Shown in pieces: positions 32,880 to 62,957 of a stretch of 64,000 nucleotides of DNA. The position numbers were made by a program, and so were the translations under genes. Origin of the DNA: an uncultured Loktanella sp. (lineage in GTDB: Bacteria; Pseudomonadota; Alphaproteobacteria; Rhodobacterales; Rhodobacteraceae); the NCBI GenBank assembly GCA_937132065.1, contig CAKZNT010000032.1, positions 1 through 64,000 of the forward strand, in the 5' to 3' direction. The first letter of the stretch is position 1; every line of letters begins with the position of its first letter. Below the pieces are notes generated by a model, which worked only from the letters and a program-made list of their open reading frames with translations, was not told where the DNA came from and made no database searches.

Positions 32880-32907
32880 GTGCACGCTTGGTGCACGCGC
32901 TGTGCAC
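32880..32907 (-). repeat. Triple GTGCAC array, copy 1
   Basis: GTGCAC at 32880-32885, 32891-32896 and 32902-32907, each 11 bp apart. Including the flank, a 43-bp stretch matches the array at 62930-62957 in 37 positions, in the same orientation relative to the downstream gene. The distal flank reads GGTGTGATTTGC on the leftward strand. Confidence 0.75.
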
Positions 32908-32919
32908 GCAAATCACACC

Positions 32920-34059
32920 TTATTTCGGCAAAGGCAAAGAGCCGTCCTTATAAGGCAACCAATCGGTGATCTCGGGGTAATACATTGCGCGCCATTTGCG
33001 CACACGCGGGTTCATCGCGCGGCGCCATATCGTTGGGGACAAGGCCGCCAAAGTCATCACAGGATACCCGTAAGGCAGTTGCGGCGCATCAGCCGCGTCA
33101 TGGTTTTGCAGCAATGGAAAGCGGCGATCAGGCTTGTAATGATGGTCCGAATGGCGCTGCAAATTGATCAGCAACCAGTTCGACGCTCGCTGCGCCGTGT
33201 TCCACGAATGGCGCGGCATCACGTGCTCGTATTTGCCATCACCAAGGTGCTTGCGGGTCAGTCCATAGTGCTCGACGTAGTTCACCAATTCCAGTTGGAA
33301 AATTGCGGTAAATGCTTGAACTGTAAACAAAAACAGGCCCCAAACATCACCGATCAATAGCGCCAGAAGCAGGAAACTCGCCTGCATAAGCCAATAGGTC
33401 CAGAACGGGTTAGAGCGGTCGTGCCACGGCAATCCCTTGCGGGCGAGCATGGCCTTTTCGGCTGCAAAAGCGGAGTGATAACACTGTCGCACAACGCGCG
33501 GGAAGAACCGCCAGAAGCTTTCGTTATAACGCGCCGTCACAGGGTCGCGCCGCGTCCCGACATAGCGATGATGCACAAGCAAATGTTCCGACCGGAAATG
33601 CGAATACAGAACCATGCCCAGCAAGGCATCCCCCATCCTCCGCTCGATCTTGGGCTTCTGATGCATCAATTCATGACTGTAATTGATCCCGATTGTGCCA
33701 GTCACAACACCAACGCCGATCATTAAAAAGTATTGTTCCCAACCACTTAGATGATCCGCACGGGTGACGTAGTATAGCGTGCCAAAGATCATGACGAACT
33801 GGATAGGGGCCCAAACTGCGGTGATGAGCTTATACCAGAACAGCTGATCATCTGGCGTTTGCGGATCGGCGTTATTCTCGTTCAGGCCAGCAAAAAGGTC
33901 GATGATCGTGAACAGATACCATGTCGAAATCGGCAAAAGTAAAACCGACCAACCCCCTGTTGTTACACTATAAAAAACCAGCGGAACCAGCAAAAGCGAA
34001 AGCCAGAAAGGCAACGCGGATGTCAGCTTCGCAACTTTGGATGGTGGAATCATGCTCAT
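32920..34059 (-). CDS. alkB: Alkane 1-monooxygenase (AlkB type)
   Basis: 379 residues from ATG 34059. A GTG three codons earlier is possible, but TAGGTG suits the ATG. An integral membrane non-haem di-iron hydroxylase that oxidises the terminal carbon of alkanes. The histidine boxes are HELMH, HLLVHHRYVG and LQRHSDHHYKPDRRFPLL, plus NYVEHYGL before the last, all present. About six hydrophobic helices. No rubredoxin gene is adjacent. The substrate could be a medium-chain alkane or another lipid. Confidence 0.9.
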   Translation of the reverse strand: MSMIPPSKVAKLTSALPFWLSLLLVPLVFYSVTTGGWSVLLLPISTWYLFTIIDLFAGLNENNADPQTPDDQLFWYKLITAVWAPIQFVMIFGTLYYVTRADHLSGWEQYFLMIGVGVVTGTIGINYSHELMHQKPKIERRMGDALLGMVLYSHFRSEHLLVHHRYVGTRRDPVTARYNESFWRFFPRVVRQCYHSAFAAEKAMLARKGLPWHDRSNPFWTYWLMQASFLLLALLIGDVWGLFLFTVQAFTAIFQLELVNYVEHYGLTRKHLGDGKYEHVMPRHSWNTAQRASNWLLINLQRHSDHHYKPDRRFPLLQNHDAADAPQLPYGYPVMTLAALSPTIWRRAMNPRVRKWRAMYYPEITDWLPYKDGSLPLPK

Positions 34060-34112
34060 TGGGGTCACCTACTGTGAGAATATGGCGACCCTATGAAATC
34101 GCTGATCAAATC

Positions 34113-35165
34113 TCAATTGTCGCGTAACGTCGCATCCACCAAGGCGTAAACCTTGCGCATCGCCGTTGGTAAATCACGCGGATTAAATTCTGCCTTTTCA
34201 ACAAAGTAGCCGCGATCGACCGTGTCCTCTGGTCCAATAGTGGCGGTCATAATCGTCAGTTCCAGATGGAAATGCGTGAATGTATGACGCGCTACGTCAT
34301 TCATGGTTGTCCACGCGACATCCAGCGGCGGGTCGGGTTGCGGTGCTTCGCTCCAATCTGTGCCCGGAAATGCGCGCATCCCACCCAAAAGCCCCTTTTC
34401 GGGGCGCGTTTCCAACAGCCAAGCCCCGTCATTGCGCCGCACGACATAGGCAATGCCATAGCGTGTCGGCACTTTCTTTTTGGGGGTCTTCTTGGGCAGT
34501 TCTGCCGCTGTTCCCTCCGCACGCGCGGCACATGGTTCGCGCCAAGGACAGATGACGCAGGCAGGGTTGCGTGGCGTGCAGATCGTCGCGCCAAGGTCCA
34601 TCACCGCCTGCGCATAATCACCCGCGCGCAGACGCGGGGTGAGCGCCGCAGCATGTGCTGTCAGCGCGGGCTTTGAGGCTGGTAACGGGTCGTGCACATT
34701 ATGCAAACGCGCCATGACCCGCTCGACATTCCCATCAACAACAACGGACGGCTGATCAAAGGCAATCGCTGAAATCGCGGCGGCGGTATAAGGCCCGATT
34801 CCGGGCAATGTCAGCAACTCGTCATTTGTTTCAGGGAAAACGCCAGCATGTTCGTCGACGATCTTGCAGGCACATTTCAACAGGTTGCGCGCGCGGGCAT
34901 AATACCCAAGACCCGCCCAAGCGGCCATGACATCGGCATCTTGCGCCGCAGCAAGCACAGAGACAGTCGGCCATAACCCCATGAATTTGTTATGATATGC
35001 GCGCACCGCGGCCACGGTCGTCTGCTGCAACATGACTTCCGAGAGCCAAACGGCGTAGGGGTCTGGGCGCACGCCGGCCTTGCGATCAGCAGGGCCAATG
35101 CGCCACGGCATTTCGCGGGCATGCACATCATACCAAGCCAGCAGGTCGAGAGACAGATCACGCAA
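34113..35165 (-). CDS. mutY: A/G-specific adenine DNA glycosylase MutY
   Basis: 350 residues. It removes adenine opposite 8-oxoguanine. Helix-hairpin-helix LLTLPGIGPYTAAAISAIAF with the catalytic Asp in VVVDGNVERV, an EVMLQQT helix, a 4Fe-4S cluster C-x6-C-x2-C-x5-C (CTPRNPACVICPWREPC), and a C-terminal NUDIX-like domain from about 230. It is divergent from the DciA-like gene. Confidence 0.95.
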   Translation of the reverse strand: MRDLSLDLLAWYDVHAREMPWRIGPADRKAGVRPDPYAVWLSEVMLQQTTVAAVRAYHNKFMGLWPTVSVLAAAQDADVMAAWAGLGYYARARNLLKCACKIVDEHAGVFPETNDELLTLPGIGPYTAAAISAIAFDQPSVVVDGNVERVMARLHNVHDPLPASKPALTAHAAALTPRLRAGDYAQAVMDLGATICTPRNPACVICPWREPCAARAEGTAAELPKKTPKKKVPTRYGIAYVVRRNDGAWLLETRPEKGLLGGMRAFPGTDWSEAPQPDPPLDVAWTTMNDVARHTFTHFHLELTIMTATIGPEDTVDRGYFVEKAEFNPRDLPTAMRKVYALVDATLRDN

Positions 35166-35233
35166 TCTTTATTCATCCTGATATCGGGTTTCGCTGGCAT
35201 GACGCCCGCTTTCCACTAGATTAGCGCTTAGAT

Positions 35234-35743
35234 ATGAAACAGCCACGCCACACCAGCACCACTTACGGTTTTTCCCGTGCAGCGACCTTAATGCAAACAC
35301 GCATCAAGAGCGCAAGCGAAAGTCGTGGATTCGCGGTGACCCGTCTGTTGACCCATTGGGCCGAGATCGTGGGCGCAGCAACCGCAGGCATCGCGACACC
35401 TGTGAACGTGTCCTATGGCAAAGGCGGATTTGGCGCGACGCTGACGGTTTTGACCACGGGCGCACAAGCCCCGATGCTTGAAATGCAAAAAGAGCAAATT
35501 CGCGAAAAGGTAAACGCCTGCTACGGCTACAAGGCGATTGCGCGGGTGCGGATCACGCAGACTGCGCCTGTCGGGTTTAACGATGGCCGCGTGGCGTTCG
35601 AACAGAAAACGGCCAAGCGCAAAACACCTGATGCAAAGGCCGTTGAGGTCTCGAGCGACCTTTCCAAAGATGTCCAAAGTGACGAATTGCGCGCGGCGCT
35701 TGCCGCCCTTGGTGCAAACGTCATATCAAAACACAAATCCTGA
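35234..35743 (+). CDS. DUF721 / DciA-family protein
   Basis: 169 residues. The N-terminal DUF721 domain (about 20-110) includes LLTHWAEIVGAATAGIATPVNV and a beta-rich part ending KAIARVRITQT. The tail is Lys-rich. DciA proteins help load the replicative helicase in bacteria without DnaC, but this alphaproteobacterial version is short of experimental backing. It sits 17 nt before the DsbA-like gene. Confidence 0.8.
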   Translation: MKQPRHTSTTYGFSRAATLMQTRIKSASESRGFAVTRLLTHWAEIVGAATAGIATPVNVSYGKGGFGATLTVLTTGAQAPMLEMQKEQIREKVNACYGYKAIARVRITQTAPVGFNDGRVAFEQKTAKRKTPDAKAVEVSSDLSKDVQSDELRAALAALGANVISKHKS

Positions 35744-35760
35744 AGAACGAAGGAAATTCG

Positions 35761-36423
35761 ATGCAACGTAGAAATCTGATTGTTGGCGGCGCGGCGGCTC
35801 TTGGCCTTGGTGGTTGGGCATTGTCCCGCCCCTCAAAAGACCTCCCTTTTGATCCGTTTATGGCGGCAAATGCGCAAGAGGCAACGGCAGAACCCGCGAT
35901 GATCCCCGACATGGTTTTGGGTGACGCAAACGCGCCAATCGAGATCATCGAATACGCGTCCTACACGTGCCCGCACTGCGCGACGTTTCATGCGAACGTA
36001 TTCCCGAAGCTGAAGGCCGACTACATCGACACCGGCAAGGTGCGCTTCATTTACCGTGAAGTTTACTTTGATCGCTTTGGCCTTTGGGCGTCGATGATCG
36101 CGCGCTGTGGTGGCGAAATGCGCTACTTTGGTCTGGCCGGATTGATCTATGAAAACCAGCGCGCCTGGACCGCGAGCGGTGATCCTGCGACGATCATCGA
36201 AGATTTGCGCAAGCTGGCCAAGACTGCGGGCCTCACCGACGAGATGCTGGATGCTTGCATGAATGATGCAGAGCAGGCAAAGGCGCTTGTTGGCTGGTAT
36301 CAGGAAAATGCCGAGCGCGATGACATCAAATCGACTCCGTCTTTCATGATTGATGGCGAAAAGTATTCCAACATGGCTTACGGCGATTTCCAGTCAATCC
36401 TTGACGAAAAGATCGGCGGTTAA
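35761..36423 (+). CDS. DsbA-family thiol:disulfide oxidoreductase
   Basis: 220 residues. The N-terminus MQRRNLIVGGAAALGLGG resembles a Tat/Sec signal (twin Arg at 3-4), so it should be periplasmic. The thioredoxin-fold active site is CPHC in YASYTCPHCATFH (near 70-73), with cis-Pro STPSF near 196. It oxidises or reshuffles disulfides in exported proteins. GAAGGAAATTCG precedes the ATG. Confidence 0.9.
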   Translation: MQRRNLIVGGAAALGLGGWALSRPSKDLPFDPFMAANAQEATAEPAMIPDMVLGDANAPIEIIEYASYTCPHCATFHANVFPKLKADYIDTGKVRFIYREVYFDRFGLWASMIARCGGEMRYFGLAGLIYENQRAWTASGDPATIIEDLRKLAKTAGLTDEMLDACMNDAEQAKALVGWYQENAERDDIKSTPSFMIDGEKYSNMAYGDFQSILDEKIGG

Positions 36424-36424
36424 G

Positions 36425-37537
36425 ATGCAGCCGCTTGCAGGCCTCAAGGTTGTAGAGCTGGCGCGGATTCTGGCTGGCCCATGGGCCGGTCAGACCCTCG
36501 CTGATCTAGGTGCGGACGTGATCAAGGTCGAGGCTCCCGCAGGCGATGACACGCGCCAGTGGGGTCCGCCGTTTATCGAGCGGGACGGCGAAAAGTCGGC
36601 GGCATATTTTCATGCCTGCAACCACGGAAAGCGGTCGGTCGTCCTTGATTTCAAAACCCCTGAGGGGCTGGCCAAGTTACGCGCGTTGATTGCTGACGCC
36701 GACATCCTGATCGAGAATTTCAAGGTCGGCGGCTTGGCGAAATACGGGCTGGATTATGCAACGCTATCGGCGGATTTCCCAAAGCTGATCTATTGCTCGG
36801 TCACGGGGTTCGGACAGACCGGCCCCTATGCCCACCGCGCAGGCTACGATTATATTATCCAAGGCATGTCTGGCCTGATGTCGGTGACGGGCGAACCTGA
36901 CGGGCAACCGCAAAAAGTGGGCGTCGCGGTCACGGACCTGTTTTCGGGACTATACGCCAGCACCGCGATTCTGGCGGCGGTTCAACAGCGGCACACGACG
37001 GGTAAGGGGCAGCAAATTGACGTTGCGCTCTTTGATGTTGCGACTGCTGTGATGGCCAATCAGGGGATGAACTATCTGGCGACTGGTGTTGCACCAAAGC
37101 GATTAGGCAATGCCCATCCAAACATCGTGCCCTACGCGGTTTTTGACTGTGCTGACGGGTATATCATCATCGCCTCTGGCAATGACGGCCAGTTTGGCAA
37201 GTTGTGCAAGCTCCTTGGCCTGTCTCTGGATGATCGTTATGCGACAAATGCCGACCGCCTTGAAAACCGCGCAGAATTGACCGCGATTCTGACTGAGCAG
37301 ACCTGCAAGTGGACGAAAGAAAAACTGCTAGCCGCCTGCGAGGAGCATGGCGTGCCTGCGGGGCCGATCAACGATATGGAAGAGGTTTTTGCCGACCCGC
37401 AGATCGTCAGTCGTGGCATGCGCGTTGATCTTGATGGCGTGCCATCGGTGCGGTTGCCTGTGGTGTTTTCGGATGCGGACACAACGCCCAAGGCGGCGTC
37501 ACCCAAGCTTGGTCAGGATCAGGATTTGCTGGATTAA
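36425..37537 (+). CDS. CaiB/BaiF-family CoA transferase
   Basis: 370 residues from ATG 36425, 1 nt after the DsbA stop; an in-frame upstream start lies within that gene. Class III CoA-transferase features are [60 protein letters not shown] (the catalytic Asp region follows) and [17 protein letters not shown]. The acyl donor and acceptor cannot be told from sequence. Its stop overlaps that of convergent lpxK by 4 nt. Confidence 0.88.
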
Positions 37538-38502
37538 AGCCCCAGCTTTGCGAGAGCGGCGTCCATGGCTGTCCAGTCGTCCAGCTCTAGCCGCACAGGC
37601 ACGGTCAACACCTTGGCGCGAAAACGCTCGGGTAGTCGCACCGCATCTTTTTCCGTCGTCACCATCTGGGCGCGCCGTAGTTTTGCCTCTGCCTCAAGCC
37701 GGATCATAAGTGGATCGGAAAGTGGTTGGTGATCCGCTAGCGCCTCGGCGTGAATGACCTTGGCGCCCATGCTGCGCAGGGTGTCAAAGAACTTCTCGGG
37801 GTGACCGATGCCCGCAAAGGCGAGCACAGGCAAATCCTGCCAAGACATGCCAGTCTGCAACGGCGCCAAATACCCCGTGACATGCGGCAGATCGAAAGTC
37901 ATTGGCCGCTTGGCCTTCCCGATTGTGACAACCAGATCGGCGCGTGCCAATCCAACGTGCGCAGGTTCACGCAGCGGGCCCGCAGGGATGACCCGCCCGT
38001 TCCCGAAACCGCGTGCTGCATCAACCACCACAATGCTAAGGTCTTTGTGAACCGCAGGGTTCTGGAAGCCGTCATCCAGAATGATCACATCAGCACCAGC
38101 CTTGGCGGCGGCGATGACGCCTGCCTTGCGATCCTTAGCCACCCATGTCGGCGCAAAGGCGGAGAGCAATAACGGCTCGTCCCCTGTTTGTTGCGCCTTA
38201 TGGGTTTGCTCAATCACGAGGGTTGGCCCCTCAAGCGAGCCGCCATACCCGCGTGTCACAAAGTGGGGCTGCTTTCCCTGCGCTATGATCCGCTGGGCGA
38301 TTGCAATCGCGGTGGGTGTCTTGCCCGTGCCGCCCGCGTTGATATTGCCCACGCAAATAACGGGGACGGGTGCATGAAACGGGTCCCCTTTTGCCAGCCT
38401 GCGCGCCGTTGCGGCGGCATAAAGAGCGGCAAGTGGCGCAAGCAGCCGCGCCTTCCATGCGGGTTTTTCAGGGGCAGTGAACCAGAAGTCGGGCGTGCGC
38501 AT
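37534..38502 (-). CDS. lpxK: Tetraacyldisaccharide 4'-kinase
   Basis: 322 residues from ATG 38502, whose A is shared with the waaA stop (TAATG). It phosphorylates the lipid A precursor at the inner membrane. The P-loop is [18 protein letters not shown] (about 52-69), with [18 protein letters not shown] carrying the catalytic Asp region. An N-terminal hydrophobic helix binds the membrane. Confidence 0.94.
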
Positions 38503-39689
38503 TATTGATCTACCTTGTCCAGTTGCCCGTAAATCGCGTTCACAAGCATATTGGTGGCATCTGCCCCGCGCGATGTTGCATCCCATGCGCTATGGGCGAG
38601 TTGAGCGGCCAGATCGGTTGCAAGCAAGCTTTCTACTGCACGGCCCAATTCCCGCGTTTCTCCAACATGTTGCAAGGCGCTCGCGGCCAAAAGGCGGTTA
38701 TACTGGGTCTTGTGATCGCCGACCTTTGGTCCCGATAGAACCGCAGAGCCGACAGTGGCGGGGGCAAATGGATCAAGCGTTTCGCCATCTGACAAGCTAC
38801 CGCCCAGATAGGTTATGGACGACAACCGACACCACAGCCCCGGCCCGTCACCAGTATCGACAACATAAATCTGCGTCGATTCTCTGGGGGGATCATCTGC
38901 CGAACGGCATGCCACGCTAAACCCGTCACCCCGCAATATTCGGGTCATCTCGATGCCATCCGCAAGGGTGCGCGGTGACACAAGCAACAACGTGCGGTGG
39001 GCCCGTCTGGCAGCGAGCCGATGGGCATCAGCCACGGCCATCAGTTCGGCCATTGGAATATCGGCGGCATACCACATGGGGCGGCCGCCAAGGGACTGGG
39101 AGAGTTCAAGGCGCTCTGCCTCAACATAAGCTGGCGGTATTGCCCCCGCCTCCAAGACACCCGTAGTGGTCGTCGTTGTCGGATCTGCGCCAGACCTGAC
39201 GAGCCGCGCTGTTGTCTCGTCATCAAGCGTTTGAATTGCGCAGAAACCCTCTAGGAGGTTGCGCATCAGGCCAGGCACGCGGCGGCCAATGGTCTTGTCG
39301 ATGTCCCTGCTGGTTGCCTCGGCAAGGATCATGGGAATGCCGCTATCCCTGATCTCGAACAGAGGCGCGGCCTCAAGCGGGCCACCAACCCAAAGCACAA
39401 TTTGCGGCTTCCAATGGGCGATAAATGCACGTGTGCTGCGCTTGGTATTGGGGCTAATCAATCGGGAGGCATGATGGGCGGTCGCGGTGGTGGCGATGAG
39501 GGTGATATTCTCGCCGTCGTCCGTGAGGCGCCCCGCGACACTCTTCATCGAAGCGACCTGATCGTCGTTTGCACAGATCGCCCAAACCACCGCACCACGC
39601 GGGCGCGGCGGGGTCTCTTCCCCAAGCAACCCGCGTTCAGCAGGGTTTTGGGTCGCTAGATAAGCCGCGATGATTGGTGAACGCGCCAT
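38502..39689 (-). CDS. waaA: Kdo transferase (3-deoxy-D-manno-octulosonic acid transferase)
   Basis: 395 residues, GT-B glycosyltransferase that adds Kdo to lipid IVA. Motifs include [36 protein letters not shown] and the C-terminal [20 protein letters not shown]. The N-terminal membrane anchor is less hydrophobic than in E. coli. It is coupled to lpxK; the DUF4170 gene lies just upstream in the same unit. Confidence 0.9.
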
Positions 39690-39707
39690 TTTTGCAGTCA
39701 GCAGGCG

Positions 39708-39953
39708 TTAGTTGCCAAGCTCTTCTGTCGGGGACGCAGCCGTTTCCTCATCGCGAAGACGGTGAATATGCGCAATGAAGTAACGCATATGCGCATTATC
39801 TACAGTGCGCTGGGCCGCGTTTTTCCACGCGTTATAGGCGCTGTCGTAGTCAGGATACATGCCCACGATGTCGATGTTTTCGACGTCTTTAAAGGCATTC
39901 TTTGTTGGGTCGATCAATTCGCCACCAAAGACGAGGTGCAAGCGTTGGGTCAT
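39708..39953 (-). CDS. DUF4170 protein
   Basis: 81 residues from ATG 39953. The sequence MTQRLHLVFGGELIDPTKN followed by VGMYPDYDSAYNAWKNAAQRTVDNAHMRYFIAHIHRL matches the alphaproteobacterial DUF4170 pattern as I remember it. It is usually found beside waaA/lpxK, as here. Function unknown. Confidence 0.8.
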   Translation of the reverse strand: MTQRLHLVFGGELIDPTKNAFKDVENIDIVGMYPDYDSAYNAWKNAAQRTVDNAHMRYFIAHIHRLRDEETAASPTEELGN

Positions 39954-40010
39954 TTTCAAACTTTCAAGTTAGCGTGTTTGGCGCGACACTATGCCTTTGC
40001 GGCGTTGTTC

Positions 40011-40784
40011 TCAAGCGAGTTGCGCAAGCAAGGTTGCGTGAAGGTTACCAGCGGCGACCAAACCGTTCAGTTGCGGATGGGGGTTGTTGAATTTGACAGC
40101 CCCGCCCGCCTGATCCGTTGCAACGCCGCCCGCTTCGGACACGATCAAAGTGCCCGCCGCGACATCCCATTCCCACGTCGGGCGCAGGGTAAACATCGCG
40201 TCAAACCGGCCCTGCGCCACGAGGCATAGCCTATAGGCAAGCGATGAGCGGAAGGCGATTTTTGTTTCGGGAAACACACCCTCGCGCCAATATTTCGCTT
40301 GGCAGTTCGCCTTGTGGGTCAGCAGGGTGGCGTCCGCAAGATTCGAGGTGGCCGTTGATTTGATGGCTTGGCCGTTCAGGAATGCCCCCCCGCCCAAGGA
40401 TGCCGTGAACATCAAGTCGCGCATTGGCAGGTAAACCGCCGCTGCGGTCACTTGCCCTTTATGGGCGATGGCAATCGAGTGTGCCCAGTCTTTTGACCCG
40501 TTGATAAATGCGCGCGTCCCATCAATCGGATCGACGACGAACAAGGTGTCGGCATTCAGACGATCGGCCCCGTCTTCGGTCTCCTCGGAAAGCCAGCCAT
40601 AGCCGGATCGGGCCGCCCGAAGGGTGTCTTGCAACATCGTGTTGACCGCAAGGTCGGCAGCCGTGACCGGCCCCGCGTCATCGGGTTTGTGCCAGACTTC
40701 CGGGTCTCGCCCAAAGAACCCTTTTGCAATGTCACCTGACTTGCGTGCCGCAAACGTGAGAAGCTCTAGGTCAGTCGCCTGCAA
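40011..40784 (-). CDS. cysQ: Inositol monophosphatase-family 3'(2'),5'-bisphosphate nucleotidase (CysQ-like)
   Basis: 257 residues from TTG 40784. An in-frame TGA two codons upstream and the absence of a nearby ATG force this start, giving a 14-nt overlap with pmbA. Metal-binding motifs are LSEETEDG (near 67), VDPIDGTRAFINGS (near 83) and the late WEWDVAAGTLIVSEAGG. It probably removes the 3'-phosphate from PAP made in sulfate assimilation. A sugar-phosphate substrate cannot be excluded. Confidence 0.85.
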   Translation of the reverse strand: MQATDLELLTFAARKSGDIAKGFFGRDPEVWHKPDDAGPVTAADLAVNTMLQDTLRAARSGYGWLSEETEDGADRLNADTLFVVDPIDGTRAFINGSKDWAHSIAIAHKGQVTAAAVYLPMRDLMFTASLGGGAFLNGQAIKSTATSNLADATLLTHKANCQAKYWREGVFPETKIAFRSSLAYRLCLVAQGRFDAMFTLRPTWEWDVAAGTLIVSEAGGVATDQAGGAVKFNNPHPQLNGLVAAGNLHATLLAQLA

Positions 40785-49315: not shown

Positions 49316-49319
49316 GCTT

Positions 49320-53479: not shown

Positions 53480-53950
53480 TTACAGGCCGCCGTCAGCAAT
53501 ACGGATTTGGCGGGCGCGCGTCAGGATCGCGTCCTCGATTGCGCGCTGCGTTTCGGTCGGCACTGCGCCGCCACGTGATTGCAACGCAACACTGAGTGAA
53601 CGGGCATCTAGCGCGGGATCGGTGATATAAACCGTGGCGCGATAGGCGCGACTACCACCGGGAGGTGTGCCAAAGCCCATGACGATCACACCAGTGAACG
53701 GATCAACGCTTTGCACTGGCAGGAAGTTAAGCACATCAAGCGATGCAGCCCATAGATAGCGATTGACCGCGACATTCTCTGATCCGCGTGTGCGGGTGGC
53801 CTGTCGGGTTGCGCTTTCGTCGGCGTTTGAGCCAAAGCCAAGGCTACCAAACGGACTGCTGCCAGAGCACGCAGAGAGCGCTGTCAGGAGGGTTGCGGCC
53901 ATCAGGCCCTTTGCGACGCGTGGAAAAGTTCTCAAAACTCTGTCCCCCAA
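53480..53950 (-). CDS. DUF3576 lipoprotein
   Basis: 156 residues. Lipobox LTALSAC near residue 28 then [12 protein letters not shown]. The folded part (about 62-156) reads [17 protein letters not shown]...[13 protein letters not shown]-like and ends with a DNA-like [12 protein letters not shown]. The pattern is that of alphaproteobacterial DUF3576. Periplasmic outer-leaflet role unknown. Monocistronic after leuS. Confidence 0.75.
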
Positions 53951-54041
53951 GGGATTTCTATTCCCAAAATATGTAGCGAACAGGCGGCTTGGTCACAAGG
54001 GATTTGCGCAAAACAGGGGCAAATCAGGGAGGGATACCCCC

Positions 54042-54072
54042 AAAAGAAAAGAGCGGCCCCGAAGGACCGCTC
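54042..54072 (-). terminator. Terminator of the porin gene
   Basis: On the leftward strand GAGCGGTCC-TTCG-GGGCCGCTC with one bulge, followed by TTTTCTTTT. Placed 24 nt after the porin stop. Confidence 0.8.
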
Positions 54073-54095
54073 AATCTTAGATCAAGACATTCGAC

Positions 54096-55208
54096 TTAGA
54101 ATGTGAAGGAAACACCAACAGTTGTGCCTTCAGCGAAATCTTCGTCTGGGTCGTTTTCTTCAGTAGTTGCGTACTGGATGTAAGCGGAAGCGCCTTCACC
54201 CAAAGCGTAAGATACGCCAGCATACTGCTCGTCGCCGTTTTCAGCGATACCAGCAATAACAACTACGCCGTTGCCCATGTCGTAAGAAGCGTCGAGGGAG
54301 AATTCAGCGTCAACGCCTGTTCCACCTTCGATAGCACCGGAAACGGATACTGCACCAGCAGCGTAGCCGCCAGTAACTTCCCAAGATTCGTCTGATTCGT
54401 ACAGAACGCCAGCAGTCATGCCGTTGCCGTTGTCGTAGTCAGCGCGAACGCCCCAAGCATCGTCAGTTGCGGAGTTTACAGAGTAGTAACCACCAACAGT
54501 CACAGCACCAACAGGGTATGCAACGTCAACACCGAAGGAGTTTTCGTTCATGTCTGTGAGGTATGCGAGTGTTACGTCAGCACCGGAAACAGTCATTGCA
54601 GCGGACACACCGAGCAATTCGCCGGCTGTGAATTCGCCAGCAGTACCGTCGTCAGCACCGTCATGGTCAACGTCTTGGTAAGCAAGAACAACAGTTGCAG
54701 CACCGAATGTGGATGTTACTGCAGCCTGCATGCCAACAAGTTCGTTAGCTGTCAGGTCAACGCCGTAAGAGATAGCAGCTGTTGTGCCACCGAATGTTGC
54801 TGTGCCAACAAGGCCAGCATCAGCGTTTGCTTCCAGATCTTCGTCGAAACCGTCGAAGGAAGAACCGTCTACACCGCCCCAAGCTGCTGCTGCAACTGGG
54901 TCAACGTCGCCGTAGGACAGGCTAGCTGTGTCGGAAGAAAGTGTCAGAACGTAGTCAACGGACTCAAGAGCAACGCCACCGTTTGCTTCAACGTCTACGG
55001 AAACCGTAGCAGAAGCTGTCAGGCCGTTGTCCAGAGCGCGGGACATGGATACGTCAAGTGTAGCTTCGGAGTTGAAGCCAGTGATGTCGTTGTACTCAAG
55101 AGCAGCGGAGCCACCGAAAGATACGCCATCAGCAGATGCGTGTGATTCAGCAGAAGCGGCGCCTGCGAAGGCTACCAGAGCTGTCGTTGTAAGAAGGATG
55201 CTTTTCAT
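54096..55208 (-). CDS. Outer-membrane porin
   Basis: 370 residues. Signal peptide ends ASAESHA. The mature protein alternates polar and hydrophobic residues with many aromatic-Gly-Asp turns, is very acidic and ends TTVGVSFTF with the terminal Phe used for BamA recognition. It resembles the Rhodobacter/Roseobacter general porins (16-strand trimer). Codon use is biased, in keeping with high expression. The 240-bp upstream region probably holds its promoter and leader. Confidence 0.9.
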   Translation of the reverse strand: MKSILLTTTALVAFAGAASAESHASADGVSFGGSAALEYNDITGFNSEATLDVSMSRALDNGLTASATVSVDVEANGGVALESVDYVLTLSSDTASLSYGDVDPVAAAAWGGVDGSSFDGFDEDLEANADAGLVGTATFGGTTAAISYGVDLTANELVGMQAAVTSTFGAATVVLAYQDVDHDGADDGTAGEFTAGELLGVSAAMTVSGADVTLAYLTDMNENSFGVDVAYPVGAVTVGGYYSVNSATDDAWGVRADYDNGNGMTAGVLYESDESWEVTGGYAAGAVSVSGAIEGGTGVDAEFSLDASYDMGNGVVVIAGIAENGDEQYAGVSYALGEGASAYIQYATTEENDPDEDFAEGTTVGVSFTF

Positions 55209-55448
55209 AATGTAAAACCCTCGTGTGTTTGTGCATTCCCAAGAATGCTAGATTGGACCAGCATTGAGGGTGTAATTGCGCCTAACTGGCTGCACACTCA
55301 AGGGATTTGGCGCACTTGGGGGTCGGTCCATCAAAAATGATGCATCAAGGTCACACAAGCAAATCTGCGTTTTGGCTCATGACAACCCAACAAATACGGC
55401 CTATTTCGTCTTTACCAGTTAAAGAGCAAGCAAAATCAGGAGTATGCC

Positions 55449-56102
55449 ATGTCCCTCGAGGCCATTCGCGACCTTATCTCGAAATCCTGCCAAAAGGCGG
55501 GGCGCGCAACGGATGACGTCACTCTCATTGCAGTCTCAAAGGTGCAACCCAACGAGAGGGTCGCCGCGATTCTGGATCAGGGACACCGCATATTTGGCGA
55601 AAACAAGGTGCAAGAGGCCGCTGGTAAGTGGCCCGCCTTCCGTGAAACCTACGGGAAAGTTGATTTACACCTGATCGGACCGCTGCAAACCAACAAGGCA
55701 CGGCAAGCCATGGAGCTTGCGCAGGCGATCCATACGCTCGACCGCCCCAAGCTCGCCAATACAATCGCGCGATTGGCGCAGGAGATAGGGCAATGCCCTG
55801 ACCTGTTTATTCAGGTGAACACGGGTGAAGAGCCGCAAAAGGCTGGCTGCCTGCCCGCAGACGCAGACGGTTTCATTCAAGAGGCGCGCGCGCTTGATTT
55901 GCCAATCAAGGGATTGATGTGCATCCCGCCTGCCGACGAAGAGCCGTCATTGCACTTTGCGCTCTTGGGAAAGATCGCCGCGCGCAATGGCCTTTCGGGC
56001 CTGTCGATGGGGATGAGTAGCGACTTTGAAAGCGCAATCGCCCTTGGGGCCACACATGTGCGGGTCGGATCGGCAATCTTTGGTGACCGCTCCTATGAGT
56101 AG
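55449..56102 (+). CDS. yggS: Pyridoxal-phosphate homeostasis protein (YggS family)
   Basis: 217 residues, TIM-barrel. The PLP-binding Lys is in LIAVSKVQP (near 29-37), with GENKVQEAAGKW, HLIGPLQTNK and GLSMGMSSDFESAIALGATHVRVGSAIFG, all diagnostic. It keeps free vitamin B6 in balance. Its stop is overlapped by the rluA start (8 nt). Confidence 0.94.
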   Translation: MSLEAIRDLISKSCQKAGRATDDVTLIAVSKVQPNERVAAILDQGHRIFGENKVQEAAGKWPAFRETYGKVDLHLIGPLQTNKARQAMELAQAIHTLDRPKLANTIARLAQEIGQCPDLFIQVNTGEEPQKAGCLPADADGFIQEARALDLPIKGLMCIPPADEEPSLHFALLGKIAARNGLSGLSMGMSSDFESAIALGATHVRVGSAIFGDRSYE

Positions 56103-56742
56103 TGACTACAACCCGCCCCAAGAGCCGCTCGAATTCCTGCACGACGATCACGAGGTCGTTTTGGTCAACAAGCCTGCGGGGCTTTTGTCGGTTCCGGGCA
56201 AGGGCGAACATCTCGCAGATTGCCTCATGGCGCGGGTCAAGGCGGTGTTTCCAACTGCTCTCCTTATACATAGGCTTGATCGGGACACCTCGGGCGTCAT
56301 GATTTTCGGGCTGACGCCACATGCGCAGCGCCACCTTGGCCTGCAATTTGAAAAGCGACAGACCAAGAAAACCTATATCGCCCGCGTTGCAGGTGAGATG
56401 ACGCAAAAGACGGGAACTGTCGATCTGCCGATCTGCGTCGACTGGGAAAACCGCCCCCGTCAAAAGATCGACCATGAGAACGGGCGGAGCGCATTGACCG
56501 ATTGGCGCGTTGTGCGCGCTGGCAATGGCGAGACCCGCGTGCGGCTTATGCCCAAAACGGGGCGCTCGCACCAACTGCGCGTGCATATGCTGTCGCTGGG
56601 TCACCCGATCTTGGGCGACCCGTTCTATGCAACAGGCGAGGCCTTGGACCATCCGCGGATGATGCTGCACTCGGAGACATTCCAGTTCCGCCACCCTGAC
56701 GGGGGGCAAGGAACCCGTATCACCGCTAAAGCCCCCTTTTAG
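56095..56742 (+). CDS. RluA-family pseudouridine synthase
   Basis: 215 residues from ATG 56095. The catalytic motif HRLDRDTSGVMIFG is near residue 60, with KKTYIARV and the later RSHQLRVHMLSLGHPILGDPFY. It lacks an S4 domain, so it resembles RluA rather than RluC/D. It probably modifies 23S rRNA or tRNA. Its end overlaps by 4 nt the convergent dioxygenase stop. Confidence 0.92.
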   Translation: MSSDYNPPQEPLEFLHDDHEVVLVNKPAGLLSVPGKGEHLADCLMARVKAVFPTALLIHRLDRDTSGVMIFGLTPHAQRHLGLQFEKRQTKKTYIARVAGEMTQKTGTVDLPICVDWENRPRQKIDHENGRSALTDWRVVRAGNGETRVRLMPKTGRSHQLRVHMLSLGHPILGDPFYATGEALDHPRMMLHSETFQFRHPDGGQGTRITAKAPF

Positions 56743-57665
56743 GGGAGCGGCACAAGCGTGGCCTCTAGCGTCTCGCGCAAATGCGCGTGGCGGCTTGGCA
56801 GTTTAAGAGCCTCGCCCAGATGTGCGGTATCCTCGTCGCGATCAAAGCCGGGCTCGTTCGTGGCAATCTCGAACAACACGCCAGCAGGGGTGCGGAAATA
56901 GATCGCATGAAAGTAGTCACGATCAATCACGGGGGTCACTTGATACCCCGTGTCCAGCAACGCTTCGCGGACCTCAAGCTGGCGGGCACGGTTTTCAACA
57001 GCAAAGGCGATGTGATGCACCGAGCCAGCACTTGATGCGGCAGCGGGCGCGTTTGGCAGGGTCTCGATATCAATGACGTTCGCGGCATTGCCATCTGGCA
57101 CGATAAAGCGGGTCACATTGTCTTGGGTGTCAAACACCTCATAGCCCATGAACTGCAATAGCTCAGAAGTCGCGCCGCCATCCGCGATCCGCATATCAGC
57201 CCCCTGAAAGCCGCGAATGCCCATGTCGGTGCTGACACCGCCACCTGTCCAAGGGGCGCGATCATCGTCCAGCTCGACAAGTGCGAACCGCTCGCCGTCA
57301 GGGCCGTCAAACAACACCCGCGACTGGCCAAAGCGGATATCTTGGGTGATCCCGTTCACGTCAAACGTGGCGAGCCGCTCGGCCCAAGCGGACGCGCTGC
57401 CTCTAGGAATAGAGAAGTAAGTCACACCAACTTCGCCGACGCCGCGCTTGCCACGGGCCGCATTCGGGAAGGGGAAGTAGGTCATCACCGACCCGGGCGT
57501 GCCCACCTCGTCACCGTAATACAGGTGATAGACGTCAGGCGCGTCAAAGTTGACCGTCTTTTTCACGCGGCGCAGGCCGAGGGTATTGGTAAAGAATGCG
57601 TTGTTGTCAGGCGCACTGCTCGCCAGTGACGTGACGTGGTGCAGGCCTTTGATCTGTTTCAGCAT
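56739..57665 (-). CDS. VOC-family ring-cleaving dioxygenase
   Basis: 308 residues made of repeated glyoxalase-like modules. Metal-ligand candidates are GLHHVTSLASSAPDNNAFF (His near 8-9), GSVHHIAFAVENRARQ (near 222) and the Glu in GVLFEIATNEPGFD. It resembles LinE/MhqO hydroquinone dioxygenases. The substrate may be a hydroquinone but no ring hydroxylase is adjacent. Confidence 0.85.
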   Translation of the reverse strand: MLKQIKGLHHVTSLASSAPDNNAFFTNTLGLRRVKKTVNFDAPDVYHLYYGDEVGTPGSVMTYFPFPNAARGKRGVGEVGVTYFSIPRGSASAWAERLATFDVNGITQDIRFGQSRVLFDGPDGERFALVELDDDRAPWTGGGVSTDMGIRGFQGADMRIADGGATSELLQFMGYEVFDTQDNVTRFIVPDGNAANVIDIETLPNAPAAASSAGSVHHIAFAVENRARQLEVREALLDTGYQVTPVIDRDYFHAIYFRTPAGVLFEIATNEPGFDRDEDTAHLGEALKLPSRHAHLRETLEATLVPLP

Positions 57666-57763
57666 AGCGAGGCTCCTTTATTGGGTTACCTCATAAGTAG
57701 CACTTTCGCCGATGCACGAAATGGCAAGGGGCGCACGTCTATAGTGCGCCCCTGCACATGATA

Positions 57764-59203
57764 TTAGTCGATAGACCACGCAGAGATTGCCTTGGACTCG
57801 AGGTATTCCTCGATGCCCCAGACGCCACCTTCACGGGCGCGACCAGACAGCTTCACGCCACCAAACGGTGCGCCATTACTGCGCGATGCGCCGTTCATCT
57901 CGATCATGCCCGCCTTGAGGGCGCGGGCCATGCGGTTACGCTTGGCGCCATCGGTTGACTGCACATAGTTGGTCAAACCATAGGGCGTGTCGTTTGCAAT
58001 ACGGATCGCATCCGCCTCATCTTCAAACGGGATAAGCACCAGAACAGGGCCGAAAATCTCTTCTTGAGCAACGCGCATGTCGTTGGTCACATCAGCAAAG
58101 ATCGTCGGGCGGACATAGAACCCGCGGTTCACGCCCTCGGGCAGGCCCGTGCCGCCCGCAACCAGCTTTGCGCCCTCGTCGATACCGACCTGAATCATGC
58201 CTTGGATTTTTTCCCACTGGGATTTGTTCACGACTGGACCCATGTGGCGGCCAGCATCGGCTGTTGGGCCGACCTTGATCTTATTGGCTGTATCAATCGC
58301 TTGCGTGACAGCTTCGTCATACCGCGAGCGCTCGATCAGCATGCGGGTCGGGGCGTTGCAGGATTGACCAGAGTTGTTCATGCAATGGCGCACGCCGCGC
58401 ACAACTGCCTTGGGGTCAGCATCGGCAAACACGACGTTTGCACCCTTACCGCCCAACTCAAGGCCAACGCGCTTGAGGGTTTCAGCTGCGCCCTTGGTGA
58501 TCAATCGACCGGCACGGGTGGAGCCGGTAAAGCTGATCATCGCCACGTCTTCATGTGCAGTAAGCTGCGAGCCGACACCAACGCCGTCACCATTGACGAC
58601 ATTGACAACACCGGCAGGAATCCCTGCTTCGTGCAGAATTTCGGCAAATACGATGCCTGACAAAGGCGCCTCTTCGGACGGTTTCAAAACCATCGTGCAA
58701 CCCGCGATCATCGCAGGAAAGACCTTGAGCGCGATCTGGCTAATCGGCCAGTTCCATGGGGTGATCATCCCGACCACGCCGATAGGTTCCATCAAGATAC
58801 GGTCTGTCGGGGCATGGTCACCAAGGGGGCGATCCCAGCCGATGTGCTTGGCGGCTTCAATGGCGTCATTCAACGCCCAAGGCATCGCAGGCGCCTGAGA
58901 ACCATGCGCCAGATCATGCGGCGCGCCCATTTCCAGACGGATCGCCTCGGCCATATCGGCGGCGCGGGTCTCGTAAACCTTCATCACGTTCTGGACGTGG
59001 GCGACACGTTCATCAACGCTAAGGGCTGCCCAAGCAGGGAAAGCCGCCTTTGCTGCGGCGACAGCAGCATCCGTATCCGCCTGATCACCAAGCGAGATAA
59101 CGCCCACCTGTTCTTCGGTTGAGGGGTCAATCACTGGGTAGTCGCGTGGGGCCGCCGGGGCCACCCAAGCGCCGTTAATATAGAAATCGCGGTGCGTAAT
59201 CAT
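57764..59203 (-). CDS. Aldehyde dehydrogenase family protein
   Basis: 479 residues from ATG 59203 (TGGAGAGACC upstream; the earlier in-frame start is not supported). Catalytic Glu in ELGGKGANVVFADADP (near 250) and Cys in NNSGQSCNAPTRML (near 284), with MITPWNWPISQIALK in the cofactor region. NAD(P)-dependent oxidation of an aldehyde; substrate unknown. Divergent from the peroxiredoxin. Confidence 0.9.
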   Translation of the reverse strand: MITHRDFYINGAWVAPAAPRDYPVIDPSTEEQVGVISLGDQADTDAAVAAAKAAFPAWAALSVDERVAHVQNVMKVYETRAADMAEAIRLEMGAPHDLAHGSQAPAMPWALNDAIEAAKHIGWDRPLGDHAPTDRILMEPIGVVGMITPWNWPISQIALKVFPAMIAGCTMVLKPSEEAPLSGIVFAEILHEAGIPAGVVNVVNGDGVGVGSQLTAHEDVAMISFTGSTRAGRLITKGAAETLKRVGLELGGKGANVVFADADPKAVVRGVRHCMNNSGQSCNAPTRMLIERSRYDEAVTQAIDTANKIKVGPTADAGRHMGPVVNKSQWEKIQGMIQVGIDEGAKLVAGGTGLPEGVNRGFYVRPTIFADVTNDMRVAQEEIFGPVLVLIPFEDEADAIRIANDTPYGLTNYVQSTDGAKRNRMARALKAGMIEMNGASRSNGAPFGGVKLSGRAREGGVWGIEEYLESKAISAWSID

Positions 59204-59330
59204 AAGGTCTCTCCAAGGCATGTGTTTGGCGCATCGTGGCATTGCGCCGCGCATCGTGCAAGCGGTCTAGCAAGGCCACTGCACAACACCTATATCTGGA
59301 TAAGAGAATTGCAACATAAGGAGTAGCGCC

Positions 59331-59978
59331 ATGAGCTTGCGTATTAACGACACAATCCCGAACCTGACCGTAGACACCGATCAGGGCACGTTGAACTTGC
59401 ATGACTGGATCGGCGATAGCTGGGCAATCCTGTTCTCGCACCCAAAAGATTTTACACCCGTCTGCACAACCGAATTCGGCGCAGTGGCGCAGCTGTCGGA
59501 CGAATGGGCCGCACGCGGAACCAAGGTGATGGGCATCTCTGTGGATAGCGCAGAAGAGCACAAGAAATGGAAAACCGACATTGAAAAGGTCGCAGGCACA
59601 ACCGCTGGCTTTCCGATCATCGCGGACGAAGACCTGACCGTTGCCAAAGCATTCGACATGCTGCCAGCAGAGGCCTACATGCCTGACGGGCGCACGCCAG
59701 CCGATAGCGCCACAGTGCGCGCCGTGTTTATCGTCGGCCCAGACAAGCAGTTGAAGCTGTCGATGACCTACCCGATGAACGTGGGCCGCAACTTTGCCGA
59801 AGTTTTGCGCGCGTTGGACGGGCTGCAAACCGCTGCAAAGCACTCTATCGCGACACCTGCGAACTGGAACGTGGGCGACGATGTTGTCATCCCGACATCG
59901 TTTAACGCAGACGCCGCGAAAGAAAAGTTCGGTGAGTATAACGAAGTGCTGCCTTACCTGCGCATGACCAAGCTCTAA
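59331..59978 (+). CDS. 1-Cys peroxiredoxin (Prx6 type)
   Basis: 215 residues. The peroxidatic Cys is in FTPVCTTEFGA near residue 45, with the upstream WAILFSHPKDFTPV and the C-terminal domain longer than in AhpC. No resolving CP motif is visible, fitting the Prx6 group. It removes peroxides in the cytosol. ATAAGGAGTAGCGCC precedes the ATG. Confidence 0.93.
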   Translation: MSLRINDTIPNLTVDTDQGTLNLHDWIGDSWAILFSHPKDFTPVCTTEFGAVAQLSDEWAARGTKVMGISVDSAEEHKKWKTDIEKVAGTTAGFPIIADEDLTVAKAFDMLPAEAYMPDGRTPADSATVRAVFIVGPDKQLKLSMTYPMNVGRNFAEVLRALDGLQTAAKHSIATPANWNVGDDVVIPTSFNADAAKEKFGEYNEVLPYLRMTKL

Positions 59979-59998
59979 GCAGCGATCACGTCGAAAAC

Positions 59999-60035
59999 AA
60001 ATGGCCCCTGCAAACGCGGGGGCCATTTGCGTTTT
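59999..60035. terminator. Bidirectional terminator between peroxiredoxin and SnoaL-like genes
   Basis: 10-bp perfect arms AAATGGCCCC / GGGGCCATTT. To the right GCGTTTT follows; to the left the A-rich flank gives T on the other strand. Confidence 0.75.
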
Positions 60036-60423
60036 AGGCGCTCTGCTTGATCAGATCGCCAAACGGGTTGTCGATCACCATCAACCAGTTGCCATCAGCC
60101 TGCTTGCGCAGAACCACAACCGAAAATCCTGATTGTGTGAACTCGGAGCCGTCAGGCGCGCTTCCCACCATATCCCAAGTGCTCGAATGCACCGCAATAT
60201 CGCCAGTCTGGATGATCTCATGTGCGGTCAAAGTGATCTGCGGCTTCATGCTCATGAACCCTTCAAACGCGCCGCGAAGTGCGGGCATGCCTGTCGCGAA
60301 CTGGCCTGGCTGGCCTTGCAACAAACCGTTCGGCTCAAAGGTGGCCAATACGGCCTCGATATCACCCGCGCCCACGGCTGCGTTGTTTGCAAGGACGACT
60401 GCGTTGATGTTTTCATTTTCCAT
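60034..60423 (-). CDS. SnoaL/NTF2-fold (DUF4440-like) protein
   Basis: 129 residues. One alpha plus a curved beta sheet pattern: MENENINAVVLANNAAVGAGDIEAVLATFEPNG, then GMPALRGAFEGFMSMKPQITLTAHEI, ending WLMVIDNPFGD. Such folds serve as small enzymes or binding pockets; no catalytic pair is certain. Monocistronic. Confidence 0.8.
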   Translation of the reverse strand: MENENINAVVLANNAAVGAGDIEAVLATFEPNGLLQGQPGQFATGMPALRGAFEGFMSMKPQITLTAHEIIQTGDIAVHSSTWDMVGSAPDGSEFTQSGFSVVVLRKQADGNWLMVIDNPFGDLIKQSA

Positions 60424-60506
60424 TTTTCAAATTCCTTTGTGCTTGTTGATGACACCTAGGTAGCGCAGCATCCTGACAGAAAGTGGCAGTAGGTGGCGCG
60501 CGGATA

Positions 60507-60540
60507 AAAAAAGCCCCGGCGTTTCCACCGGGGCTTTTTA
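60507..60540 (-). terminator. Terminator after pnp
   Basis: Stem AAAAAGCCCCGG / CCGGGGCTTTTT with an 8-nt loop, ending in T on the leftward strand. A strong rho-independent site. Confidence 0.9.
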
Positions 60541-60558
60541 TTTTCAAAACTGTAGAGA

Positions 60559-62691
60559 TTACTCTTCAGTTTTTTCTTCTTTAGCTTCTTCACCAGTTTC
60601 CTGATCAACAACTTTCATGGACAGGCGCACCTTGCCACGATCGTCAAAGCCCAAGAGCTTGACCCAAACTTCCTGACCTTCTTTGAGAACGTCGGATGGG
60701 TGGTTCAGGCGGCGGTTCTCAATCTGGGACACGTGCACCAGACCGTCGCGCTTACCAAAGAAGTTCACGAATGCGCCGAAATCGACGAGCTTCACGACCT
60801 TACCTTTGTAGACTTTGCCTTCTTCTGGCTCGGCTACGATGGAATAGATCATGTCGTAGGCCTTCTTGATGGCCTCGGCGTCGTTAGAGGCCAGCTTGAT
60901 GATGCCTTCGTCGTTGATGTCGACTTTAGCGCCGGACACTTCAACGATTTCACGGATCACTTTACCGCCAGAACCGATAACTTCACGGATCTTGTCAGTC
61001 GGGATCTGCATGGTCTCGATCTTTGGTGCGTGCACGCCCAGATCGTTTGCGCCAGTCAAGGCTTTGCCCATTTCACCAAGGATGTGCAAACGGCCAGCTT
61101 TCGCCTGTGCCAATGCCTTTTCCATGATCTCTGGCGTGATGCCTGCGATCTTGATGTCCATCTGCAAGGATGTGATCCCTGCTTCTGTGCCAGCAACTTT
61201 GAAGTCCATGTCGCCAAGGTGATCTTCGTCACCAAGGATGTCGGAAAGGATCGCATAAGAGCCATCGTCTTCCATGACCAGACCCATCGCAACACCAGCA
61301 ACCGCTGCCTTAAGTGGCACACCTGCGTCCATCATGGACAAGGAGCCACCGCAGACCGAAGCCATTGAGGAAGAGCCGTTGGATTCAGTGATCTCGGACA
61401 CCAAGCGGATGGTGTATGGGAAATCAGTCGCAGGTGGCAGAACCGCCTGAAGCGCACGCCAAGCCAGCTTACCGTGACCGATTTCACGACGACCCGGACC
61501 AGACACACGACCAACTTCACCAACAGAATATGGTGGGAAGTTATAGTGCAGCATGAAGTTCGACTTAAACATGCCAGTCAAGCTGTCGATCATCTGCTCG
61601 TCGTCGCCAGTGCCCAGTGTTGTGACCACAAGACCCTGTGTCTCACCGCGTGTGAACAAGGCAGAGCCGTGTGTGCGTGGCAGGATACCGGTTTCGGAAA
61701 CGATCGGACGGATGGTGTCGAGGGCACGGCCATCGATACGCTTGCCGTTCTTCACAACGTCACCGCGCAGAACTGCGGACTCAAGACCCTTAAGCGCTGG
61801 GCCAAGGTTTTTGTCTTCTTGCTGCTCTTCAGTCAAAGACGCAACGATTTCGTCTTTCGCTGCTGCAACAGCACCAGTGCGCTCTTGCTTGTCAGTGATC
61901 GCATAAGCGGCACGCATCTTGTCTTCGCCAGCGGCTTTCACGGCTGCGGACAGCTCGGAGTAGTCTTCTGGTTGGAAGTCAAACGGCTCTTTTGCGCAAT
62001 CTTCGGCAAGATCAATGATCAGGTCGATGACTGGCTGGATGCTGTCGTGGGCGAATTTCACCGCACCAAGCATTTCAGCTTCGGAAAGCTCGTATGCTTC
62101 TGATTCAACCATCATCACGGCGTCTTTTGTGCCTGCAACAACAAGGTCAAGACGCTGCTCTGGCTGGAGGCGCAGGTTGTGCATGTCGTCGATTTCAGGG
62201 TTCAGGATGTATTCACCATCCACGAAACCAACGCGACAAGCGGCGATTGGGCCACGGAACGGCGCGCCGGAAATTGTCAGCGCAGCAGAAGCCGCGATCA
62301 TCGCAACCATGTCTGGATCGTTGACAAGGTCATGGGACAGCACGGTGCACATCACCAGAACTTCGTTCTTGAAGCCGGGCACGAACAGCGGGCGGATTGG
62401 ACGGTCGATCAGGCGGGATGTCAGCGTCTCTTTTTCAGTAGGACGCGCTTCACGCTTGAAGAAGCCACCGGGCACTTTACCCGCGGCGTAATACTTTTCT
62501 TGGTAGTGCACTGTCAGGGGGAAAAAGTCCTGACCTGGCTTTTGCTTACGTGCAAATGTCACGTTCGCCATGACGCTTGTTTCGCCAAGCGTGGCAATCA
62601 CGGAACCGTCTGCTTGACGGGCGACTTTGCCTGTTTCCAGTGACAGCGTTTCTTCGCCCCACTGGATTGATTTTTTAACTTCGTTAAACAT
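60559..62691 (-). CDS. pnp: Polyribonucleotide nucleotidyltransferase
   Basis: 710 residues. Two RNase PH-like domains (about 1-230 and 320-550), then KH ([20 protein letters not shown], near 565) and S1 ([20 protein letters not shown], near 625). It degrades RNA by phosphorolysis and works in the degradosome. rpsO, the usual upstream neighbour, is not seen to the right in this window. The tail is acidic/Lys-rich. Confidence 0.97.
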
Positions 62692-62705
62692 CTATGTTTT
62701 CCTTT

Positions 62706-62746
62706 GGGCCGCGGCCCTTGTTTTGCGTAGGGGGCGTATTCCCCCT
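62706..62746 (-). promoter_or_regulatory. Two stem-loops in the pnp leader
   Basis: GGGCCGCGGCCC is a perfect 12-nt palindrome 15 nt upstream of the pnp start. AGGGGG-CGTATT-CCCCCT is a perfect 6-bp stem a little further up. In E. coli, pnp mRNA is autoregulated through leader stems cut by RNase III. The same principle is possible here. Confidence 0.45.
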
Positions 62747-62929
62747 CATTCCTACATCTTGCGCGGGCGCTGGAATGCGGACGCCTGTCGTCTCAAGATG
62801 GCTGGGCCATACAGTATTCGACGGCGTTTGGGAAGCGTTGAGGTGCTGCATGAAAATACACAAAAAGCCGCGCGCGTAGAGAATCAGAGTTAACATCAAG
62901 TAGGACTAAGAAATCAGGGTGTGACTTGC

Positions 62930-62957
62930 GTGCACAAGGTGTGCACAAACCGTGCAC
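62930..62957 (+). repeat. Triple GTGCAC array, copy 2
   Basis: GTGCAC at 62930-62935, 62941-62946 and 62952-62957, exact 11-bp spacing. Flanked upstream by GGTGTGACTTGC and downstream by CGA, as in the copy at 32880-32907. It points toward the DoxX-like gene, whose start is 128 bp further on. Confidence 0.75.

Follow-up and report, generated by a model that had tools for sequence, protein, structure and literature searches.

Two intergenic elements in a 64,000-nucleotide stretch of DNA from an uncultured Loktanella sp. (contig CAKZNT010000032.1, positions 1 to 64,000; referred to here as the window) carry the hexamer GTGCAC three times at exact 11-bp steps. Each of them is one of about sixty such sites scattered around the genome. 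Sequence comparisons with related genomes indicate that each element is very probably an array of three to four 11-bp binding sites for a stand-alone BrnA-family protein with a predicted ribbon-helix-helix (RHH) fold. The DNA code of this antitoxin-like protein seems to have been rewritten together with its sites, lineage after lineage.

Phased arrays in the window and in related genomes

The triple GTGCAC with exact 11-bp phasing at 32880–32907 and 62930–62957, described in a first-pass annotation of the window, was confirmed. Array 1 occupies positions 32877..32919 on the minus strand and array 2 positions 62918..62960 on the plus strand. Once the two 43-mers are brought into the same orientation, 37 of 43 positions match, in agreement with the earlier estimate. 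In both elements a fourth, degenerate unit (GTGTGAYTTGC) is located one step upstream of the triplet: GTGTGATTTGC at the 5' end of array 1 and GTGTGACTTGC in array 2. The repeat unit is therefore 11 bp long and oriented (C-GTGCAC-NNNN). The window contains 16 copies of GTGCAC. Six belong to the arrays and are intergenic, and the other ten all lie inside genes called by our script, as the first-pass annotation had stated. A two-unit search of the window with two mismatches permitted returned only four overlapping pairs, all from the two elements and every one exact. For this loose pattern 4.8 chance matches are expected in the window, and at least four occurred in 64 of 100 shuffles. The window count by itself proves little; the exactness of the units and the genome-wide count carry the proof.

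A genome-wide search for the phased triplet, as the first-pass annotation had suggested, yielded 59 strict matches in the whole source genome (G000; other G numbers denote genomes of relatives), where a four-unit array scores twice. The reversed-pattern control gave none. The two-unit pattern was matched 125 times, again with no match of the reversed control. In a genus sample of 36 genomes, including the source genome, seven contained at least one strict triplet: G000 (59), G010 (54), G031 (22), G024 (16), G020 (2), G013 (1) and G019 (1). Across the family at least one was found in 19 of 394 genomes; the other families of the class, sampled with 24 genomes, contributed none.

In a scan of named sequences, 80 of at least 110 matching stretches were listed. 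The matches listed belong mainly to roseobacters, for example Leisingera, Lentibacter, Tateyamaria, Loktanella and Thalassovita; a few distant names are also among them, and matches in distant phyla may be due to chance. The Flavobacteriia title of the metagenome-assembled genome AQU-04 is doubtful, because a contig identical in name and length is also present in the Roseobacter assembly AQU-03 (L246 and L256). A phage origin of the sites was considered as well. Strict triplets were found in 25 viral contigs (L176–L200). A search with a 52-bp site, however, retrieved not a single phage and only one record of a plasmid; the Sulfitobacter conjugative plasmid NZ_CP136685.1 showed a partial match covering 62% of the query. 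In G010 a three-unit and a four-unit array lie about 30 bp apart in one intergenic gap (L047:5862-5957).

A BrnA-family protein as candidate binder

Genes within 3 kb of arrays were clustered. Across five genera, members of a single family lay 70–188 bp away from an array. It corresponds to BrnA_antitoxin (PF14384), and all five array-adjacent proteins scored 46.4–48.0 bits against a curated cutoff of 26.1. The candidate in the source genome is a protein of 136 amino acids encoded outside the window (G000:C13:51136-51540). The largest near-array cluster consisted of ABC ATPases (eight labels, 41–2097 bp from the array), which we excluded because they form a large family of paralogues. Genes that we take to be gltD-like were found within 19 bp of an array in four labels, two of which are apparently one genome.

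When searched with a profile of the five proteins, 141 of the 394 genomes of the family and 28 of the 40 of the genus gave a match. The family-wide search was limited to 10 scored candidates in each genome, so that genomes without a match may hide such genes. The five top matches in the genus were from G000, G010, G031 and G024 (59, 54, 22 and 16 triplets) and from G452. No BrnA-like profile match was obtained for G020, G013 and G019 (2, 1 and 1 triplets), a pattern that fits loss of the binder and subsequent decay of the arrays.

In many genomes that contain no GTGCAC arrays, an 11-bp-phased array with another hexamer is located upstream of the BrnA-like gene. A triple with at least 17 of 18 matching letters was present upstream of 64 of 97 BrnA-like genes, compared with none of the 288 control windows taken from these loci. 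With at least 16 of 18 letters the numbers were 81 of 97 and 11 of 288. These statistics comprise 97 of 99 loci, one upstream region that reads N and one duplicate row having been dropped. The 99 loci were 30 from the family-wide profile search, 40 next-best matches and 29 from the genus search, so chosen that weak profile matches are under-represented.

The hexamers at the gene's own promoter predict genome-wide arrays of the same hexamers, which were counted on both strands. RTRCAC was matched in 47 of 394 family genomes, with a total of 4 matches for the reversed control; since GTGCAC is palindromic, many places are counted on both strands. Ten of the 11 genomes predicted to use RTRCAC were positive, nine of them with at least three matches (G245 51, G291 48, G091 46, G413 28, G315 18, G143 16, G343 14, G252 5, G189 3, G070 1, G267 0). 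For GTMTGR all ten predicted genomes were positive with 6 to 131 matches (G126 131, G204 70, G361 36, G164 30, G130 27, G344 26, G399 21, G108 12, G250 8, G098 6); its reversed control gave 23 matches in the 394 genomes, 10 of them in G361. A BrnA-like match is present in all 15 genomes with at least five GTMTGR matches. Of the 48 genomes with at least five matches of either family-wide pattern, 44 contain a BrnA-like match; of the 346 others, 97 do (p = 8e-18, kinship ignored). Within the genus, at least three matches were found in four of seven genomes predicted for GTCGGC (G023 55, G026 43, G014 37, G012 4; G030 2, G008 1, G022 0) and in three of seven for GTACAC (G452 29, G007 19, G006 3; G009 2, G011 2, G016 1, G018 1), with 5 reversed-control matches in 40 genomes. 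Among the low counts, several include the site ahead of the BrnA-like gene itself. Array copy number therefore varies between roughly one and dozens. The genome-wide searches covered GTGCAC, RTRCAC, GTMTGR, GTCGGC and GTACAC, not CGGCTG, GTCTTG, TCTTCC and other hexamers.

Some gene neighbourhoods are kept while the motif changes. A neighbour that is presumably a ketosynthase, named by us from its first residues, accompanies GTACAC, GTACAT, ATGCAC and GTATGG arrays, and a presumed prfC-like neighbour, named in the same way, accompanies GTGCAC and CGGCTG arrays. An alpha/beta hydrolase (assigned by Pfam in G000 and Ascidiaceihabitans) is found next to GTGCAC, GTACAC and CATAAG arrays.

Protein and hexamer also covary. 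For this comparison we used 69 of the 99 loci (triple of at least 16 of 18 letters, register A/G then T) and excluded columns with more than 10 gaps. Residue column 55 was associated most strongly with the hexamer, its excess mutual information being 1.27 compared with 1.02 for the second-ranking column. Arg55 pairs with hexamers ending in CAC (32/32), Lys55 with G at base 5 (15/18), Ala or Ser at position 59 with A at base 1 (8/10), and Asn57 with CTT (3/3). The pairing of Lys55 recurs in genes with differing neighbours. The single Fisher tests for these residue pairings were picked after the pattern had been seen; the column ranking was not. Arg55, Thr57 and Arg59 are expected to face the DNA from the strand of the predicted RHH fold.

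Several observations weigh against the assignment of this protein as the binder or against a general coupling of its code to the arrays. Columns 57 and 59 are outside the 14 columns of highest association. High scores are found in many columns, which is the effect expected of relatedness; with kinship ignored, relatedness thus contributes to the association. At the own promoter 16 of the 97 upstream regions lack even a triple of 16 of 18 letters, a level reached by the 11 control windows. Within the genus, six genomes (G009, G011, G016, G018, G030, G008) have the motif at hardly more than one or two places, and G022 lacks it. Four genomes with at least five RTRCAC matches (G198, G206, G308, G401) and one with four (G360) have no BrnA-like match; a binder that has diverged, a gene overlooked by the search or a different protein may account for their arrays. 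NCBIfam returned no above-cutoff match for the five proteins. The AlphaFold model of the binder, built from 4 sequences, is poor (pLDDT 48.5), and the RHH fold therefore rests on Pfam and the literature. The best sequence match in the PDB was a transposase with an E-value of only 0.58.

We also considered a BrnTA toxin-antitoxin operon, which would place a BrnT gene just upstream. The check covered 30 of the 99 loci and judged neighbours by strand and gap, not by a scan for PF04365; none of the 29 loci with an upstream neighbour has a same-strand gene within 100 bp upstream. A same-strand gene is found at 105–137 bp in five of the 29 and farther away in two. The operon was rejected for the loci checked. 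In G025 (L360/L369) the BrnA-like gene is in two pieces in different frames and CATAAG-type arrays persist, possibly a recently broken binder.

Position of the arrays relative to genes

The first-pass annotation regarded the elements as upstream sites of a promoter regulon. In tandem gaps, however, the array is closer to the 3' end of the upstream gene in 71 of 81 cases (p = 2e-12), namely 33/36 in G000, 10/11 in G010, 10/13 in G031, 9/11 in G023 and 9/10 in G014. Gene calls are from our own simple caller. From each of the latter four genomes 20 to 24 arrays were sampled, those of G023 and G014 having another hexamer than GTGCAC; G024 (1/1) and G020 (1/1) were left out of the total. The median distance in G000 is 15 bp to the stop codon and 79 bp to the start codon. 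Among 63 arrays of the source genome (triples and some pairs), 8 are within called genes by one criterion and 7 by another, including those in cobN and znuC. As judged by eye, the flanking genes have no common theme.

Because the arrays hug gene 3' ends and some are in coding sequence, the reading as a promoter regulon fails, and repression or activation of promoters at the dispersed arrays is an unlikely general function. It would agree with the array before the binder's own gene, where autoregulation is plausible, and with those arrays that lie in divergent gaps, which in G000 make up 10 of the 53 intergenic arrays with both neighbours called and include array 2. What stood of the earlier proposal of a cooperatively binding regulator is a protein bound once per helix turn, for which the stand-alone BrnA-family protein is our candidate.

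In the window, array 1 adjoins the stop codon (32920–32922) of a fatty-acid desaturase gene (32920..34059, minus strand; PF00487, 122.9 bits), which we take to be AlkB-like, a name of our own (alkB in the following). Downstream of the array follows a gene on the minus strand (32271..32807) that had been labelled DUF6151/GFA-like. The GFA assignment holds (PF04828, 29.6 bits, cutoff 24.3), and DUF6151 is just under its cutoff (26.3 bits, cutoff 27). Array 2 is located in the divergent gap between pnp, coding for polynucleotide phosphorylase (60559..62691, minus strand; PF01138 and others), and a small open reading frame (63085..63429, plus strand). The earlier name DoxX-like for the latter could not be confirmed, with no Pfam match at an E-value of 0.001.

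The main rival to a chromosome-wide role is that of protein-bound transcription roadblocks, with the arrays as terminators or insulators at the 3' ends of genes. We consider this rather unlikely. The short distance to stop codons agrees with it, as do the arrays after alkB in relatives with other motifs. Terminator-like hairpins, however, are not significantly rarer at array ends (5/35 versus 19/81, p = 0.32, crude scan), arrays in genes and in divergent gaps do not fit, and avoidance of promoters explains the placement equally well. A role as chromosome-maintenance sites that are oriented or confined to ori/ter (KOPS-, Chi-, parS- or Noc-like) would agree with the arrays being scattered, made of oriented units and frequently outside promoters. 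This explanation is very improbable here: the 22 triplets of G031 are spread over both replichores and 10 of 22 are co-oriented with replication, without evident ori/ter or strand bias, as counted by hand with origin and terminus roughly placed by means of a dnaA-like gene and of GC skew, sampled noisily at 20 points.

Dispersed, intergenic-biased and sporadic between species, the arrays could also resemble a mobile or selfish repeat (REP/BIME- or MITE-like) inserting between genes. The comparison of znuC orthologues (20 of 30 fetched loci), the sole in-gene array aligned to relatives without array, argues against this. The in-frame arrays of G000 and G010 are at ordinary codons of the other orthologues. 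Of the 19 orthologues besides that of G000, 17 have the same length and no strict array (one of them, in G020, with a degenerate version), G010 has the array, and G013 (L150) has a 33-bp in-frame tandem duplication where G000 and G010 bear the array. The array in cobN is at the identical codon in G000, G010 and G031. Since the znuC array replaces codons without an insertion or deletion, an inserted mobile repeat is unlikely; as the hexamers moreover vary by lineage and match the promoter of the local binder, we regard it as very improbable. A mobile repeat scattered regardless of genes, which the first-pass annotation had named as the reading opposed to its own, is thus not what we find, many positions being kept between species.

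Position is kept across motif classes most clearly at the 3' end of alkB, yet this is a single locus. In the G010 region, fetched by similarity to that of G000, the array directly follows the stop codon as in G000. Inspection by eye of the remaining 28 relatives revealed three with an array of another motif and 25 with no obvious array. The motifs after the stop codon are GTGCAC in G000 and G010, GCATAAG in G025 and G034, and GTACAK in G021. The arrays of G025 and G021 resemble the one before their own BrnA-like gene; that of G021 is weak, and its own-promoter triple (15/18, p = 0.16) is not significant alone. Among genomes with the same motif, flanking genes are shared with G000 at 9 of 21 G031 arrays and 16 of 24 G010 arrays, and between G014 and G023 at 5 of 20. 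Across motif classes, flanking genes in common with G000 were found for 4 of 20 G014 arrays and 2 of 21 G023 arrays, which is weak retention, about one each being expected by our own estimate. Conservation of position, proposed earlier as a check on sites upstream of orthologues, is hence partial (znuC, cobN, alkB), and a consistent promoter position is seen only ahead of the binder's own gene.

Comparison with known systems and implications

CdbA of Myxococcus xanthus is a nucleoid-associated RHH protein that binds direct repeats one turn apart, with 569 peaks in and between genes and a minor effect on transcription (PMC7156744). The arrays share with it an RHH protein (here predicted), helix-turn-spaced direct repeats and chromosome-wide sites inside and between genes. 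CdbA differs by more than 500 sites, a loose motif and binding of c-di-GMP, whereas the present system combines a protein of the BrnA family with tens of sites and with a motif that is sharp and specific to the lineage. In Sulfolobales, SegB has 46–49 scattered sites (PMC12284271). It likewise combines an RHH protein (predicted in our case) with tens of scattered sites, some at its own locus. Its site is a 13-bp palindrome common to genera (more degenerate in Thermococcus) and mostly intragenic, and SegB acts with the ParA orthologue SegA, in contrast to the 11-bp direct arrays with a switching hexamer described here. The tens to hundreds of dispersed sites of CdbA- and SegB-type organisers, not restricted to promoters, have their counterpart in the motif sites, which the protein would occupy.

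ParR is an RHH protein bound to direct repeats of parC, 11 bp in plasmid R1, and its specificity varies between families (PMC9426499); direct 11-bp repeats thus suit RHH binding. In that system, parC is a plasmid centromere beside parM, in contrast to tens of chromosomal sites. BrnA is an RHH-domain antitoxin controlling its own operon (PMC11980606). It belongs to the same Pfam antitoxin family as the candidate binder; our case differs in the genome-wide sites and in the 29 of 29 loci with no same-strand gene up to 100 bp upstream. No paper on the present system was found in the open-licence PubMed Central literature, a coverage outside of which subscription papers and most preprints fall.

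Based on these comparisons we propose the following picture. Dimers of the BrnA-family protein would bind side by side, one per helix turn, in a direct and cooperative manner, and the array before the protein's own gene would mediate autorepression. The protein could be a domesticated antitoxin acting on the whole chromosome. By analogy to CdbA and SegB, the dispersed sites may shape or mark the chromosome rather than control promoters, a role that we suggest tentatively. We see an even chance that a domesticated antitoxin operates a genome-wide network of cooperative 11-bp arrays, that the recognition code of the protein and of its tens of sites has been rewritten jointly and repeatedly, the hexamer changing at some positions that persist, and that a simple residue-to-base code of the β-strand drives the switch. 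Such rewriting could be likened to centromere-like or PRDM9-like turnover, as a bacterial counterpart.

A binding network with tens of sites should resist change. Within a single bacterial family, the DNA code of a small protein family nonetheless seems to have changed many times, with its genome-wide sites carried along even in genes. The lineages would provide natural replicates for the co-evolution of a protein-DNA code and its network, and possibly a specificity code for RHH proteins. The protein would moreover be a candidate organiser of the chromosome in a major family of marine bacteria.
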